DNA of 64,000 nt. It comes from Flavobacterium sp. YJ01. GTDB taxonomy: Bacteria; Bacteroidota; Bacteroidia; Flavobacteriales; Flavobacteriaceae. Both the position numbers and the translations under genes were made by a program. Every line of letters begins with the position of its first letter. The first letter of the stretch is position 1. The DNA lies in NCBI RefSeq assembly GCF_029320955.1, contig NZ_CP119757.1:4030001-4094000 (forward strand), in the 5' to 3' direction. Positions 23,963 through 63,325 of this stretch are shown here, piece after piece. The notes beneath the pieces are model-generated. The model did no database searches. It saw nothing but the letters and a program-made list of their open reading frames with translations, and had not been told where the DNA came from.

Positions 23963-23970
23963 AAAAAAAA

Positions 23971-24010
23971 CTTTGAACCTTTGTCACTTTGTTCCTCTGA
24001 ACCTAACCGC
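23971..24010. repeat. 8-base-period repeat tract
   Basis: Five consecutive 8-base units of the type CTTTGAAC, ending at the stop codon (24010-24012) of the phosphoesterase gene. It belongs to the same period-8 family as the tracts at 34273, 34720, 42177, 42399 and 50891. Confidence 0.85.
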
Positions 24011-33202: not shown

Positions 33203-34261
33203 TTAGCTTTTTTCTTCTTTGTTGAAGTAAACTAAGTAGTAATACATTTGTTTTTCTTCATCCCAGCCTTTTTCAACAAATTTTTCTGCACTTTCTGGAT
33301 TAATAAAATCCATTTTGATTTGAATGTGAGTATCTAAATTAATCACATTTTTAATCGATTTTCTAGCGTCAGAAACCGCTGCGTTGGCGATAGGGAATGA
33401 GGTTACATCTTCGATGCTGTATTTTTCTCCTTTATCAACTTTATAGTTTTTGAATTCAGGAATCAAATCAGGATTGTCTAATACTTCATTCAAGAAATTC
33501 TGCTCTTCAAACTGATCATTTTTAGCGAAATAATTCACAGATCGGTTCATAAACATTACTTCCTCTTTCTTGTCTTCTGCTGGCAAAACTACATCTTTTG
33601 CGAAGTTTTGACAGAACTTTAAATATTTTTTAGTGATGAAATTTTCATCTTCAAAAGCATCAACAGATAAAAAGTGCTCCAACCAATAACGCGCGTCGTA
33701 ACGGTTGCTGTCTACGGTTAAAATTTTGTATCCTTCTTCTTTTTTGTAATTGAAGATCAAACATCCTTTATCCAGTTTATTCAAGTTGATCCCTTGTTGT
33801 AGAATCATTTCAAGGTTGCTGTTTTTTTCTTCAAACTGTAAAAAGTCAGCCTGCAATTCGCTTTTAAAAATACCGATTGCATCTACAACATTATTATCAA
33901 TGCTTAAATTGGTCAAATACGTTACATAAACCTCTCCGTTTTTAATATGCGGATGATTTGATTGCTCGTATAAATGTTTAGTGATGTTTTTAGAAACCTC
34001 ATGTACACTCGACGGATTTGAGAAAATCTCAGTCGCGTATTTAAACATGTCGTTGTAATCCAAGTCCACTTCGTGTGCAAACTGATAATAGTTTTCTTCT
34101 TTTTCTCTAAAAGGCTTAAAAAAGAATTCTTTTATCAAAGGAACAATTTCATCATTTAAATTAAATGGCTGCTCCGATAAAAAAATAGCTTCGTTACGGC
34201 TTTTGTTTCCTACGCGGTGTATCGCCAGCGTCTCGATGTGGGTGTTGAAAAGATTTATCAT
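33203..34261 (-). CDS. Nucleoid-associated protein of the 37-kDa NdpA/YejK type
   Basis: The 352-residue cytosolic protein has the N-terminal ETLAIHRVGNKSRNEAIFLS, GIFKSE in the centre (about 138-143), an acidic/basic mixed middle and KGWDEEKQMYYYLVYFNK at the end. This fits the NdpA/37-kD nucleoid-associated family, bacterial proteins that copurify with the nucleoid and whose biochemical task is unclear. The length is typical. Upstream on the same strand is the four-helix-bundle gene, separated by a period-8 repeat arm, so any cotranscription would pass through that repeat. Confidence 0.85.
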   Translation of the reverse strand: MINLFNTHIETLAIHRVGNKSRNEAIFLSEQPFNLNDEIVPLIKEFFFKPFREKEENYYQFAHEVDLDYNDMFKYATEIFSNPSSVHEVSKNITKHLYEQSNHPHIKNGEVYVTYLTNLSIDNNVVDAIGIFKSELQADFLQFEEKNSNLEMILQQGINLNKLDKGCLIFNYKKEEGYKILTVDSNRYDARYWLEHFLSVDAFEDENFITKKYLKFCQNFAKDVVLPAEDKKEEVMFMNRSVNYFAKNDQFEEQNFLNEVLDNPDLIPEFKNYKVDKGEKYSIEDVTSFPIANAAVSDARKSIKNVINLDTHIQIKMDFINPESAEKFVEKGWDEEKQMYYYLVYFNKEEKS

Positions 34262-34272
34262 ATATTTTTTTA

Positions 34273-34312
34273 GGTACTGAGGTTCTGAGATGCTAAGGTA
34301 CTAAGGTTTAGT
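34273..34312. repeat. Left arm of inverted period-8 repeat around the four-helix-bundle gene
   Basis: Five 8-base units of the type GGTTCTGA/GATGCTAA/GGTACTAA. The last codons and stop of the four-helix-bundle gene (34301-34303) lie inside the tract. Confidence 0.9.
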
Positions 34313-34666
34313 TCTGTCTTTTATTTTTTTTATAAAAGAAACTAACATTCTTTCTACTTCGCGACTGTCCTCGTATAGGGTGTTAAAATCGTCTTCTTTT
34401 AAATAAGATATATTTTTTGCGATCTCTAATTGCGTTTGCATTTCAAATAGAGAACCAATAGAAATGCTTAAAAAACGCAAAAGTTCTTTGTCACTTTCTC
34501 TTCCATATCCTTCGGCAATATTGCTTGGAATAGAAATCGAACTACGTCTAATTTGTGAAATTAATCCGAAGATTTCTTCTTTTGGAAATTTGTTTGTTAA
34601 GGAATAAATTTTGGTAATCAAGGTCATCGATTTCTGCCAAACCAATAAAGTTCTAAAATTGCTCAT
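34301..34666 (-). CDS. Four-helix-bundle protein (S23/IVS-type)
   Basis: The 121-residue protein has the diagnostic pattern of the family originally found in 23S rRNA intervening sequences: FRTLLVWQKSMTLITKIY at the N-terminus, IRRSSISIPSNIAEGYGR (residues 39-56), and LRFLSISIGSLFEMQTQLEIA. Despite the old name it is not a ribosomal component. A related fold (Avd) binds reverse transcriptase in diversity-generating retroelements. Here the gene is bracketed by inverted period-8 repeats (34273-34312 and 34720-34758), and its final codons (RTKP-stop) are written by the repeat itself. This suggests it travels as a unit with the repeat. Target and function are unknown. Confidence 0.9.
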   Translation of the reverse strand: MSNFRTLLVWQKSMTLITKIYSLTNKFPKEEIFGLISQIRRSSISIPSNIAEGYGRESDKELLRFLSISIGSLFEMQTQLEIAKNISYLKEDDFNTLYEDSREVERMLVSFIKKIKDRTKP

Positions 34667-34719
34667 TTCTTATTTTTATATTAAACATAAAAATAAGAAA
34701 AATCTGTTAAAATAAAGAC

Positions 34720-34758
34720 CTTAGAGCCTTAGCATCTCAGAATCTTAGAACCTCAAAA
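34720..34758. repeat. Right arm of inverted period-8 repeat
   Basis: Units CTTAGAGC, CTTAGCAT, CTCAGAAT, CTTAGAAC in register, the inverse of the arm at 34273-34312. The right end of the roughly 0.49-kb element touches the stop of the next gene. Confidence 0.9.
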
Positions 34759-34760
34759 AG

Positions 34761-35303
34761 TTAATTCCAATTCTCCTCAAATCCATAATCTTCGAAGCTG
34801 TCGTCTCCTTCGAACATATCAAGATCATCTTCGTCTAAATCATCTTCAAATTCTCCGTAAATATCGTTGTGCATGTCATCAGCTTCGAAGTTTTTTTCAA
34901 GAGCTTCATCAGGCATTTCACCGTGAGAGAATAAAGTTTCTGGGTAAGTTGCTCCTACAGCTTCGTCTTCGATTGCAGCCAATTCAACCAAGAAAGTCCA
35001 CATACTAATAAAATCGTAAACGTAGATAATCTTTGTATTTTCTTTATCTAAAATACTAGATAACGGATAATCGTTCATGGTTCTCATTTCGCCAGGAACA
35101 TCTCCTGTATCAAAAAGCGGAATTTCATCTTCTTGATTCCAAGTATCATCACAAGTATAAAATGAAGCTACTTCAGATCCGTCAAAACCAAAAGCATTGA
35201 AGATTGCATTATGCAAATCCTCAAGTGTATCTTCCTCAAGAATAGCAATGTCTCTAAAAATATCTTCTTCGGCGTCTAGAATTACTCTAAATTTATAAAC
35301 CAT
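34761..35303 (-). CDS. pRiA4b ORF-3-like protein
   Basis: The 180-residue protein starts MVYKFRVILDAEEDIFRDIAILEEDTLEDLHNAI and has the ADDMHNDIYG-type region. This is the pattern of the plasmid pRiA4b ORF-3-like family (also linked to an IS1096 passenger gene), common as a single-domain protein in Bacteroidota. The last 50 residues are extremely acidic (DEDDLDMFEGDD). No catalytic motif; function unknown. Its stop is two bases from the right arm of the repeat element carrying the four-helix-bundle gene. No neighbour suggests mobility of this gene itself. Confidence 0.8.
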   Translation of the reverse strand: MVYKFRVILDAEEDIFRDIAILEEDTLEDLHNAIFNAFGFDGSEVASFYTCDDTWNQEDEIPLFDTGDVPGEMRTMNDYPLSSILDKENTKIIYVYDFISMWTFLVELAAIEDEAVGATYPETLFSHGEMPDEALEKNFEADDMHNDIYGEFEDDLDEDDLDMFEGDDSFEDYGFEENWN

Positions 35304-42170: not shown

Positions 42171-42176
42171 TTTTTA

Positions 42177-42278
42177 GGTACAAAGGGACAAAGGGACAAA
42201 GGTTCAGAGGTTATTGAAATGAGTTGATTTTTAGGAGAAAGACCTTTGCCCCTTTGTTCCTCTAAACCTTTGCACCTC
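42177..42278. repeat. Period-8 palindrome without gene
   Basis: Left arm: three units of the type GGGACAAA plus GGTTCAGA (42177-42208). Right arm: CCTTTGCC/CCTTTGTT/CCTCTAAA/CCTTTGCA (42243-42274). The arms pair with few mismatches around a roughly 34-base loop. It is a short relative of the element around the four-helix-bundle gene. Confidence 0.9.
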
Positions 42279-42398
42279 AAAAAAAACAATTCAGTAACCA
42301 AAATCAACAACTCAGTATTATTTAATTTTAAAAGAGTAAAAACCAACATACTTTTGAAGTATAAATTAACAACCAGAGTTTTAATCATCAACAAAAAG

Positions 42399-42434
42399 CT
42401 CAGAACCTTAGTAACTTAGAATCTTAGAACCTTT
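42399..42434. repeat. Single period-8 repeat arm
   Basis: CTCAGAAC, CTTAGTAA, CTTAGAAT, CTTAGAAC in register. No inverted partner was found nearby. It ends 15 bases before the TPR-protein ATG. Confidence 0.85.
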
Positions 42435-50881: not shown

Positions 50882-50890
50882 TTTTTTTAA

Positions 50891-50930
50891 GGTTCTGAGT
50901 TGCTAAGATGCTAAGATTCTAAGATTTTTT
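50891..50930. repeat. Single period-8 repeat arm
   Basis: GGTTCTGA, GTTGCTAA, GATGCTAA, GATTCTAA in register, almost identical to the arms around the four-helix-bundle gene at 34273. No partner arm nearby. Confidence 0.88.
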
Positions 50931-60930: not shown

Positions 60931-60993
60931 TTTCAAGTTTCAAGTTTCAGGTTCGCTCCAACAACTTGAAACTTTAAACCTGAAACTTTAAAC
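60931..60993. repeat. Period-7 palindrome in the trpD-trpC junction
   Basis: Left arm TTTCAAG, TTTCAAG, TTTCAGG (60931-60951). 13-base loop. Right arm CTTGAAA, CTTTAAA, CCTGAAA, CTTTAAA (60965-60992). All units are in exact 7-base register. Confidence 0.93.
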
Positions 60994-61000
60994 AATTTAT

Positions 61001-61993
61001 TTACCTGCTTAGTTCTTGTAATTTCTGTAATGCCTGATGTCCTTTTCCAGACAATAAACTTTCTTTTGCTAATTCAAAACCTTCTTTTGGAGAACATTTT
61101 GTAACGGTTGCAATTGCCATTGCAGCATTAGCGCAGACTACATTGTTTTGTGCCTCAGTTCCTTTTCCTGAAATAATATTAGTAAAGATTTCTGCCGATT
61201 CTTCGATTGTTTTTCCGCCTTCAATTTCAGTTTGGGATAAAAGACGAACGCCAAAATCTTCTGGTTTTAACATTCCTTCCATATGGTTTGAAATCGTTTT
61301 GGTTGCGCCTGTTAACGAAATTTCGTCATATCCGTCAAGCGAATGTAAAATAGTGAAATTCACATCAGTATTTTGGTATAGATAGGCATACATTCTTGCC
61401 AATTCTAAGTTGAAAACCCCAACTAATTGATTTTGCGGAAAAGAAGGATTTACCATTGGCCCCAACATATTAAAGAAGGTTTTTACCGCCAATTCTTTTC
61501 TGATTGGTCCAACATGTTTCATCGCTGGGTGAAATAATGGAGCATGTAAAACGCAGATTCCAGCCTGATCAATACATTTTTCTAAAAAAGAAGGATCGTT
61601 GCTGAATTTAATTCCCATTTTTTCCATTACGTTGCTTGATCCAGAAATTGAAGAAACGCCATAATTTCCGTGTTTTGCAACTTTAATTCCAGCCCCAGCA
61701 GAAACAAAAGAAGCTAAAGTCGAAATATTGAAAGTATCTTTTCCGTCGCCACCCGTTCCGCATAAATCGATTGTATTATAGGCAGATAAATCAACGCGAA
61801 TACATAATTCTAACAAAGCTTCGCGAAATCCCGAAAGTTCATCGATAGTAATGCTTCGCATCATAAAAACAGTCAAAAATGCCGAAATCTGGCTCGGATT
61901 ATATTGACCGCTTGAAATATTAATCAATACTTGTTTTGCTTCTTCTTTAGAAAGCACTTCGTGGTTGATTAATTTGTTTAATATAGTTTTCAT
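61001..61993 (-). CDS. trpD: Anthranilate phosphoribosyltransferase
   Basis: The 330-residue protein has the PRPP-binding loop LCGTGGDGKDTFNIST (78-93), KHGNYGVSS (near 107), GVCVLHAPLFHPAMK-type region (148-160) and the metal-binding DE pair in LDGYDEIS. It transfers phosphoribose to anthranilate. It is separate from trpG, as usual in Bacteroidota. It is followed by the period-7 palindrome before trpC and preceded by a related one after trpG. Confidence 0.96.
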   Translation of the reverse strand: MKTILNKLINHEVLSKEEAKQVLINISSGQYNPSQISAFLTVFMMRSITIDELSGFREALLELCIRVDLSAYNTIDLCGTGGDGKDTFNISTLASFVSAGAGIKVAKHGNYGVSSISGSSNVMEKMGIKFSNDPSFLEKCIDQAGICVLHAPLFHPAMKHVGPIRKELAVKTFFNMLGPMVNPSFPQNQLVGVFNLELARMYAYLYQNTDVNFTILHSLDGYDEISLTGATKTISNHMEGMLKPEDFGVRLLSQTEIEGGKTIEESAEIFTNIISGKGTEAQNNVVCANAAMAIATVTKCSPKEGFELAKESLLSGKGHQALQKLQELSR

Positions 61994-62000
61994 TTTTTTG

Positions 62001-62134
62001 TAGTCTTAAAGTCTAAAGTCGAAGGTCTTAAAGTCCTTGACTTTGTAGTTCATTTATTGCTTGTTTTTTTAGTTTTAAAATTGCGAAAGACCTTTTTTTG
62101 ACTTTATGACTTTCGACTTTAAAACTTTCGACTA
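62001..62134. repeat. Palindromic repeat of 7/8-base units in the trpG-trpD junction
   Basis: Left: TAGTCTTAAAGTCTAAAGTC and further GTC-type units (62001-62039). Right: TTGACTTTATGACTTTCGAC and similar (62098-62133). Unit AAAGTCT/GACTTTC. Period mostly 7, sometimes 8. The loop is about 60 bases. Confidence 0.85.
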
Positions 62135-62698
62135 GCTTTTTATCCAATTCTCTAACATTTTTTTTCCGTTTGGAGTTAAGACACTTTCTGGGTGAAACTG
62201 AACGCCTCTAACGTCATAATTTCTGTGTCTTAAAGACATTACTTGTCCGTTTTCGTCAAATGAAGTTGCTTCAAGTTCGTCTGGAAGATTGGTGTCTACA
62301 ACCCAAGAATGGTATCTTCCAACTTCAAATTCTTTTCCTAAACCTTCAAAAAGAATTTCGTCATCTACAACGGTTTTTACATTTGTCGCAACTCCATGAT
62401 ATACTTTATCAAGGTTTGAAAGCGTTCCGCCAAAAACTTCGCCGATTGCTTGTTGTCCTAAACAAACGCCAAGAATGCTTTTTGTCGGACTATATTTTTC
62501 GATTACTGCTTTTAATAAACCTGCTTCGTCTGGAATTCCTGGTCCTGGGGAAAGTAAAATTTTATCAAAAGAAGCAATTTCATCAATATCGAATTCGTCG
62601 TTTCTATAAACGGTAACTTCGCAGTTTAAATCTTCTAAATAGTGCACTAAATTGTAAGTGAAACTATCGTAATTGTCTATAACTAAAATCTTTTTCAT
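62132..62698 (-). CDS. trpG: Anthranilate synthase component II (glutamine amidotransferase)
   Basis: The 188-residue class I amidotransferase has IDNYDSFTYNL (7-17), the oxyanion PGPG (51-54), nucleophile Cys79 in LGVCLGQQ, His169 and Glu171 in VQFHPESV. It supplies ammonia to TrpE and might also serve aminodeoxychorismate synthase, since the two types are not separable by eye; the context favours trpG. A 118-codon antisense open frame is a shadow. Confidence 0.95.
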   Translation of the reverse strand: MKKILVIDNYDSFTYNLVHYLEDLNCEVTVYRNDEFDIDEIASFDKILLSPGPGIPDEAGLLKAVIEKYSPTKSILGVCLGQQAIGEVFGGTLSNLDKVYHGVATNVKTVVDDEILFEGLGKEFEVGRYHSWVVDTNLPDELEATSFDENGQVMSLRHRNYDVRGVQFHPESVLTPNGKKMLENWIKS

Positions 62699-62712
62699 TG
62701 TGTGTGTTTTTG

Positions 62713-62779
62713 TTTCAAGTTTCAGGTTTCAAGTTTAACGTTCCAACAACTTGAAACTTTAAACCTGAAACTTGAAACC
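62713..62779. repeat. Period-7 palindrome in the junction before trpG
   Basis: Left TTTCAAG, TTTCAGG, TTTCAAG, TTTAACG (62713-62740). Right CTTGAAA, CTTTAAA, CCTGAAA, CTTGAAA (62750-62777). In exact 7-base register. Confidence 0.93.
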
Positions 62780-62787
62780 AAATTTTC

Positions 62788-63228
62788 TTATTTTTCTCGA
62801 ACGTATTTCTCAATGATAATATGATCTACGCCTAATTTTTCTACTTTTTCGATTCCTTTTTGAATTAAGGTATCATTTTGAACTTTTACTACAAATTCGA
62901 ATTTGTTGTTTTCCCAGTTGCGGTTATTAAAATATTCTAGGTTTTCAGTATAAATGCTGTCTTTCAAAGTATATTTTCCGCCTCCAGCAAAATATAATGC
63001 AGTTGTTGAATCTTTTCCGTTTTTCAAATCATGGTTTAAAAAAGCAAAATGAGTTTCGTTTATAATTTTAATCATTTTAGCATTTTTATTGAAGGTTGAA
63101 AAAGTAGAATCTTTTTCGGTTGTTTCAGCTGATATAAGACGCCAGGTTCCTTCAATTGAATTTTTCTTTTCAGAAGTACAAGAGGTCATTATAATGATTA
63201 AAACTAAAATTGAAATTACTTTTTTCAT
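62788..63228 (-). CDS. Lipocalin-like lipoprotein inside the trp operon
   Basis: The 146-residue lipoprotein (IIIMTSCTSEKK, Cys17) has a short antiparallel beta barrel. SIEGTWRLISAETTEKDS at residues 24-41 is the GxW start of small lipocalin-like proteins of Bacteroidota, with strands MIKIINETHFAFLNHD, KYTLKDSIYTENLEYF and KFEFVVKVQNDTLIQKG. Function and ligand unknown. It stands between trpE and trpG and is flanked on both sides by period-7 palindromes, so it may have been inserted into the operon. Confidence 0.8.
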   Translation of the reverse strand: MKKVISILVLIIIMTSCTSEKKNSIEGTWRLISAETTEKDSTFSTFNKNAKMIKIINETHFAFLNHDLKNGKDSTTALYFAGGGKYTLKDSIYTENLEYFNNRNWENNKFEFVVKVQNDTLIQKGIEKVEKLGVDHIIIEKYVREK

Positions 63229-63261
63229 GGGTTTTATGATTTGTTAGTTAATTGTTTCACC

Positions 63262-63325
63262 TTTAAAGTTTCAGGTTCACTCCAAAAACTTGAAACTTGA
63301 AACTTTAAACCTGAAACTTGAAATA
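63262..63325. repeat. Period-7 palindrome in the junction after trpE
   Basis: Left TTTAAAG, TTTCAGG (63262-63275). Right CTTGAAA, CTTGAAA, CTTTAAA, CCTGAAA, CTTGAAA (63289-63323). The two arms differ in unit number (about two against five). Confidence 0.92.

Follow-up and report, generated by a model that had tools for sequence, protein, structure and literature searches.

The locus described here lies in a stretch of 64,000 nucleotides (nt) of the Flavobacterium sp. YJ01 genome (the window), in which a gene for a four-helix-bundle protein of 121 amino acids occupies positions 34301 to 34666 on the minus strand. The gene product matched the PF05635 (23S_rRNA_IVP) and TIGR02436 profiles above their cutoffs, with 139.6 bits for the former (E = 5.1e-41; curated cutoff, 33.8) and 140.1 bits for the latter (E = 2.8e-41; cutoff, 24). 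The gene is enclosed by two arms of five 8-nt units each with the core CTRAG. The left arm (34272 to 34311, plus strand), which is the downstream arm of the gene, reads AGGTACTG AGGTTCTG AGATGCTA AGGTACTA AGGTTTAG and contains the last codons and the stop codon of the gene. The right, upstream arm (34716 to 34755, minus strand) carries the core on the opposite strand and starts beside the stop codon of the neighboring gene. The original prediction had described mutually inverted arms of five 8-base units on both sides and a left arm that encodes the end of the gene; both features were confirmed. An inverted pair formed by positions 34278 to 34306 and 34727 to 34755 showed 83% identity. Immediately upstream of the start codon there is also an A+T-rich hairpin with 17-nt arms (34666 to 34700; 94%), and a hairpin of this type was seen by eye right before the start codon in many of the related cassettes (L163 to L185). 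Two open reading frames (ORFs) on the minus strand served as flank markers, the upstream neighbor (34761 to 35303), a putative pRiA4b ORF-3-like gene, and the downstream neighbor (33203 to 34261), presumably nucleoid associated.

We know of no catalytic activity for the PF05635 four-helix-bundle protein, and an anti-phage defense annotation was rejected, since PADLOC at an E value of 0.01 returned 0 families for the window protein. As RNA, the block folded with a z score of -5.58, none of 100 shuffled sequences being equally good, and the arms closed off the ORF. The Rfam search of the window returned two tRNAs and no other RNA family, and assignment of the block to a known RNA family was rejected on that basis. 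The closest solved structures were 2gsc (E = 1.8e-22) and 2rld (E = 8.2e-8), with five chains listed for each, and the title of the 2006 paper on the 2gsc protein, as it stands in the reference list of PMC10053308, contains the phrase "five four-helix bundles."

Six PF05635/TIGR02436 genes were found in this genome, and by eye all six had inverted arms with a period of 7 to 8 nt and six different words. The family was present in 99 of the 101 genus genomes searched and in 114 of 148 genomes drawn from the phylum. When the two flanks of each gene were compared, an inverted match with a score of at least 18 was obtained for 67% of 79 family genes (82 hits, reduced to 80 by removal of duplicates, with one dropped for short flanks). 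The same score was reached by 7.7% of cross-locus pairs (n = 470), 0 of 237 shuffles, 1 of 16 neighbor genes, and 3.6% of 505 genes from the sample of this genome; because of these low control rates, the inverted flanks were judged not to be due to chance. The arms were also scored by a stricter core test, in which the same 3-mer had to be present in each arm in three or more copies spaced 7 or 8 nt apart. Among 135 family genes (157 hits, 136 after duplicates were removed, 1 dropped for short flanks), 100 passed and 35 failed, while the controls gave 0 of 135 when shuffled, 22 in direct orientation, and 75 of 402 cross-locus pairs, orthologues among them. Four or five units were spanned by 149 of the 200 arms of the passing genes, three by 27, and at least six by 24. 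Cores agreed between arms at 0.93, and spacers matched in register between arms at 0.653 compared with 0.565 after the units were permuted (standard deviation, 0.012), so that word recognition and stem pairing both seem to matter. In the upstream arm, read on the sense strand, the best core contained AG at 66 of the 100 loci, CT at 3, both at 5, and neither at 26, AG being twice as frequent as CT across these upstream regions overall, arms included.

Arrays of this kind were counted in 864 kb of this genome, made up of 40 even samples plus the window. There were 34 intergenic arrays at period 7 and 23 at period 8, compared with none at either period in shuffled sequence and 0 to 6 at periods 4 to 6 and 9 to 13; the harmonics 14 and 16 gave 17 and 13. 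A random or coding origin of the 7- or 8-nt period was rejected from these period counts and the flank controls. The same 864 kb held 28 arms with at least four C[TA]RAG cores, the two arms of the window gene counted, 26 of which had four to five cores; the reversed sequence held none. Replication slippage could in principle make such arrays, with template switching keeping the inverted arms alike and the gene a mere bystander. This mutational origin would explain the period, the inverted symmetry, and some hybrid arms, and some long near-perfect arrays do exist, but it fits poorly with the excess of periods 7 and 8 over their neighbors, with the ending of most arms after 4 to 5 units, and with the tie to this gene family rather than to control genes, and we regard it as improbable.

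The upstream neighbor was present in 100 of the 101 genus genomes, and the gap between the two neighbors was compared in the 30 closest genus loci. At 22 of these the gene was found with arms between the neighbors, and at the remaining 8 the gene was missing and the gap was 92 to 151 nt long. Five of the gene-less gaps held a palindrome of another word, one (L191) kept a short CARAG-like palindrome, one had a G+C-rich palindrome, and one (L190) was masked and was scored as gene-less from its length alone. The 22 cassettes, with the word assigned by the majority of cores in both arms, comprised 12 with CTRAG and 10 with CARAG; the word agreed in both arms, and 3 of the 44 arms, the upstream arms of L174, L182, and L185, held one core of the other word. 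In the protein tree (21 rows, the frameshifted gene of L178 having been left out), the split between CTRAG and CARAG was a single branch with 100/100 support. In the flanking-gene tree (22 rows), by contrast, nine word changes were needed, at least seven of them forced by supported branches, and a single clade per word was rejected (p-AU = 9e-34). The closest pair, L164 and L165, was 97 to 100% identical in bins over the 540 nt before the gap, 100% identical in the first 60 nt past it, and 92 to 100% identical over 900 nt, compared with only 71.6% inside the gene; the junctions were the stop codon of one neighbor and the start codon of the next. Six further pairs had flanks at 85 to 100% and the gene at 65 to 76%, and of the seven pairs, all at 65 to 76% inside the gene, six differed in word and one (L169/L172) had CTRAG on both sides of the comparison.

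The agreement between word and protein, the conflict with the flank tree, and the position of the junctions suggest that the gene was repeatedly replaced along with its two arms. The flank tree needs at least seven putative replacements of this block in the one intergenic gap, and the ends of the replaced tracts seem to lie at the arms. The idea that the gene and its two arms form one exchangeable unit was supported, and the refutation tests proposed with the original prediction did not overturn it: arms and gene co-varied at the orthologous site, with arms at all 22 gene loci and mostly other palindromes at the 8 gene-less ones, and the protein tree split by word where the flank tree took nine changes. 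That protein clade and word switch together puts further strain on a mutational origin of the arms. The same tree conflict could be given by ordinary homologous recombination via the conserved flanks or by an ancestral tandem pair of which different lineages lost different members; L184 does have part of a second copy.

The reading that we favor, and hold to be rather probable, is that of a palindromic cassette, consisting of the four-helix-bundle gene and inverted arrays of 7- or 8-nt words and exchanged as a unit. Its main rival is an immobile, resident operon gene whose mRNA has a regulatory stem and whose alleles are swapped between species by ordinary homologous recombination under diversifying selection; RNase III would cut this stem, or the protein ring would bind it in TRAP-like autoregulation. 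The stable folding of the block is consistent with such a stem, and so is the AG polarity of the upstream arm, yet AG is generally the commoner of the two dinucleotides there. The occupation of the same gap at 22 of the 30 loci compared above and at named Aquimarina loci also speaks for a resident gene. On balance, and with the distribution of the words described below, we consider this rival unlikely, albeit a serious one.

In a wider set of 57 named loci at this site, which overlaps the 22 loci in part, CTRAG was found in both arms at 21 and CARAG in both arms at 18, whereas 4 had unlike arms (CTRAG upstream and CARAG downstream) and 2 had a mixed upstream arm with a CARAG downstream arm. 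The other 12 were unclassed, at least 5 of which (L311, L316, L334, L344, and L357) have a shortened frame, so that the downstream arm was sought at the wrong place. Another unclassed locus, L336 from an Aquimarina record, had a different 8-nt word, ACTGTTAG, in about eleven perfect copies. In L184, a partial second copy of the gene and a third arm followed the first cassette. G+C-rich palindromes of the type CCCTCTCC/GGGAGG or CCCCC/GGGGG were seen in the same intergenic gaps of other species (L186, L217, L218, and L221). At the compared sites, one cassette or palindrome had taken the place of another in the same gap, or the gap was shorter, and no target duplication at a virgin insertion site was recognized by eye in the compared gaps. 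The genome-wide ratio of the two words followed the resident cassette weakly (0.64 versus 0.54; one-sided P = 0.035). This weak tracking, the unlike and mixed arms, the three arms with a core of the other word, and the genes that failed the core test count against the cassette reading.

Gene-free arrays were present elsewhere in the window. Four gene-free copies of the same arms had been predicted, all as empty palindromes. Those at 42399 and 50891 do carry the word of the window gene, being arms with CTRAGNNN at 42402 to 42433 (minus strand) and at 50885 to 50926 (plus strand; five cores), whereas those at 23971 and 42177 carry the sister word CARAGNNN, on the minus strand at 23970 to 24004 and in a palindrome at 42176 to 42280. 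Two arms are present only in the last of these, and each of the other copies consists of one arm. Within the 864-kb sample, the six words of the family genes of this genome had 27, 12, 12, 2, 2, and 2 gene-free matches, thus at least 2 each, whereas 34% of the arms of foreign genes (n = 103) had at least 2 and their median was 0; the foreign arms with many matches here carry the CTRAG or CARAG word. Three CTRAGNNN units in a row were matched in 50 of the 101 genus genomes and in none of the other 51, with 30 to 393 matches per genome in the 22 species that have the cassette at the site studied here, and three CARAGNNN units were matched in 76 of 101; a single arm can be counted more than once here, and the arms around the gene are part of the counts. 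The occurrence of gene-free arrays of the same word elsewhere in the genome argues against a resident regulatory stem. In a 400-kb sample of genome G163, which has 11 family genes, arrays were no commoner than in shuffled sequence, and the arms of its two genes with usable arms had 0 gene-free matches; the gene-free spread thus appears to be a property of some lineages. Of the predicted view of empty arrays as copies of the unit, their dispersal stood for the 864 kb sampled here, and their generality did not, given the G163 sample. A derivation of the gene-free palindromes from the gene-bearing unit is plausible.

The 42 array-bearing gaps of this genome were convergent in 13 cases, codirectional in 29, and divergent in none, compared with 70 divergent gaps among 403 overall (P = 0.00035 for their absence), a distribution that fits the cassette reading as well as the regulatory-RNA alternative. 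Not every word could be matched with a gene: TTTCAAG and AATTGTT are common in this genome and had no partner among 136 family genes in a rough pattern search, in which one of the alternatives for AATTGTT was ineffective. The partnerless loci examined were L087, L091, L095, L096, L108, L110, L111, L116, and L120.

Gene-free arrays of TTTCAAG with a 7-nt period were located in the window at 60931 to 60993, 62712 to 62778, and 63286 to 63323, between genes that we take, by eye, to be a trp operon (including trpD, trpC, and trpG). The gaps of this presumed operon (60931 to 63323) hold TTTCAAG or GTCGAAA palindromes, and other words occur there in related species. The trpD-trpC gap was matched in 71 of 101 genomes, and the 30 closest loci were classed by simple patterns and by eye: 10 had the TTTCAAG palindrome, 7 a CACGAATT element, 4 a four-helix-bundle gene with arms, 1 a one-armed remnant of the gene, and 8 something else. 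Mapped onto a quick trpD tree, these classes required 13 changes, and the sisters L195 and L197 had unlike trpD-trpC gaps even though trpD and trpC were 90 to 97% identical. Unlike gene-free palindromes in one gap of sister species count in favor of the cassette reading, and the turnover of words in a gap where the gene is mostly missing weighs against the regulatory-RNA rival. In the trpG-trpD gap, an extra ORF that by eye has the look of a GNAT acetyltransferase was seen in L195, L198, L202, L204, L207, L211, L219, and L222, often between arrays of different words. Hybrid trpG-trpD gaps, whose left and right arms were built from CAGTNNN (7 nt) and CTTAGNNN (8 nt), respectively, were seen in L194, L197, and L201.

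Relatives of the protein with the same words were also present in records from other phyla. CARAG cores flank proteins with 55 to 64% identity in records titled Nitrospirae, KSB1, Verrucomicrobia, Syntrophaceae, and Deltaproteobacteria; since metagenome bins make up most of these records, misbinning is possible. In nine genomes with such records, one of them titled only "uncultured bacterium," the core test was passed by 16 of 27 genes and failed by 11, compared with 0 when shuffled and 7 in direct orientation. The 27 genes came from 30 loci among 60 listed matches, L360 having been dropped for a short flank and two loci because they held no profile gene, and about eight of them are also in the named set described next. 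At least three CARAG cores on each side were found for 5 of the 27; in L346 (Syntrophaceae), the downstream CARAG array was in direct orientation. Among 77 named loci (3 of 80 dropped for short records), 53 had an inverted flank match of at least 18, and the rate among cross pairs was 25% of 612, a high value because most of these loci share the words. The same word beside relatives in other-phyla records is a further point against the regulatory-RNA rival. Four alignment positions, 33, 86, 93, and 109, separated CTRAG from CARAG proteins, and at position 109 there was no overlap between the two groups (36 and 40 sequences, near-copies included); because each word group is a clade, these positions are a lead only.

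Our best reading of the cassette is that it is related to the intervening sequences (IVSs) of 23S rRNA and resembles RAYT/REP systems in layout without having that transposase. The IVSs of Coxiella and Leptospira, with their S23/IVP gene, share with the cassette the protein family, a gene within terminal inverted repeats that can form a stem, a sporadic distribution, and horizontal transfer. Unlike an IVS, which sits inside an rRNA gene and is excised from the RNA by RNase III, the block studied here lies in the gap between two protein ORFs, its words vary with the locus and the clade, some genomes are rich in gene-free arrays, and cassettes are swapped in place. In PMC4990558, the Coxiella IVS is described as a selfish element whose terminal stem measures 28 bp, with tandem heptamers (GACAGAT) upstream of its ORF and a protein that is apparently not made in vivo; the heptamers before the ORF fit the cassette layout. 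The IVP domain is reported in rRNA inserts of CPR bacteria (PMC11270868), the IVP/S23 family is related to Avd (PMC10053308), and the family is called functionally uncharacterized in both papers.

The window protein matched bAvd with an E value of 1.5e-7 (below the bAvd cutoff) and the PHROG Avd family with an E value of 5.3e-8, in keeping with Avd of the diversity-generating retroelements (DGRs) being a related four-helix-bundle family. DGRs have a reverse transcriptase beside the gene as well as template and variable repeats. The cassette genes differ in that no reverse transcriptase is near them, and DGR membership was rejected because this genome gave two RVT_1 hits, both separated by about 50 kb or more from each of the six genes. 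RAYT genes lie between inverted repeats, and gene-free extragenic REP/REPIN copies are found in the same genome. If the cassette were a RAYT/REP system, the protein would be the transposase of REP palindromes. The inverted repeats around a gene, dispersed in the genome as gene-free extragenic copies, are shared with such systems, but the product is not a Y1 (HuH) tyrosine transposase, Pfam at an E value of 0.001 giving PF05635 and bAvd only, and the arms are arrays of 7- or 8-nt words private to each locus. Moreover, the three Y1_Tnp genes of this genome lack periodic arms; the flanks of two give no inverted match, and the third is flanked by a nonperiodic inverted repeat. RAYT membership was rejected on these grounds, the chance that the locus is of this kind being in our estimate very slight, and the predicted comparison with RAYT was not supported as far as mechanism is concerned. 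The Y1_Tnp gene with the nonperiodic repeat (L390) has an ordinary RAYT/REP look, unlike the cassettes. TRAP is a ring protein that binds repeated NAG triplets, and the combination of a ring protein with regularly spaced short cores is analogous, with a spacing here of 7 to 8 nt; TRAP and the four-helix-bundle protein are not known to be related.

On these comparisons, a working model can be proposed for the cassette. The protein, presumably a five-chain ring, would recognize its own arm words in folded single-stranded nucleic acid, with about one word unit per protein subunit, and this self-recognition would keep the gene and its ends together. The cassette would then spread between strains by replacing whatever palindrome fills the gap, probably via recombination started at the hairpin, and gene-free arrays of the same word, where present, would be its passive derivatives. 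The apparent joint exchange of gene and arrays among related bacteria suggests that the cassette is a little-recognized kind of mobile element. Private words in the flanks, exchanged with the protein, point to a putative and testable function, word-specific nucleic-acid binding; the link also sets the rRNA IVSs in a wider context, and the cassette may account for many of the short-period intergenic palindromes of these bacteria.

A second family, GxxExxY (TIGR04256), had six hits in this genome, five of them above the cutoff, and was found in 50 of 99 phylum genomes; the three genes tested belonged to PF13366 of the PD-(D/E)XK superfamily. The flanks of GxxExxY genes gave an inverted match of at least 18 at 23 of 33 loci, compared with 3.3% of 1,056 cross pairs as the only control; L228 (weak score) and L247 (short record) were left out of the count. 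Automatic period calls scattered, with values of 8 to 10 nt in the clearest cases (L225, L229, L233, L238, and L250), and CRCRNAG was seen by eye to be common to many of the words. The GxxExxY and four-helix-bundle genes are mentioned only in passing in PMC8934634 and PMC5524665, and a literature search that took in few subscription journals found no published link of either family with periodic palindromes. We tentatively suggest, as a possibility that we would not yet bet on, a class of word-programmed palindromic cassettes in which a five-subunit ring reads five evenly spaced cores at the ends of its own cassette, words are set by the protein clade, and cassettes with different words compete for intergenic gaps and overwrite one another, with the rRNA IVSs as the rRNA branch and the nuclease-like GxxExxY genes as a second lineage. 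In L223 to L227 and L229 to L257, GxxExxY genes were seen between inverted short-word flanks, the core being more conserved by eye, and the word of L225 and L227 was, also by eye, the one found gene-free in the trpD-trpC gap.
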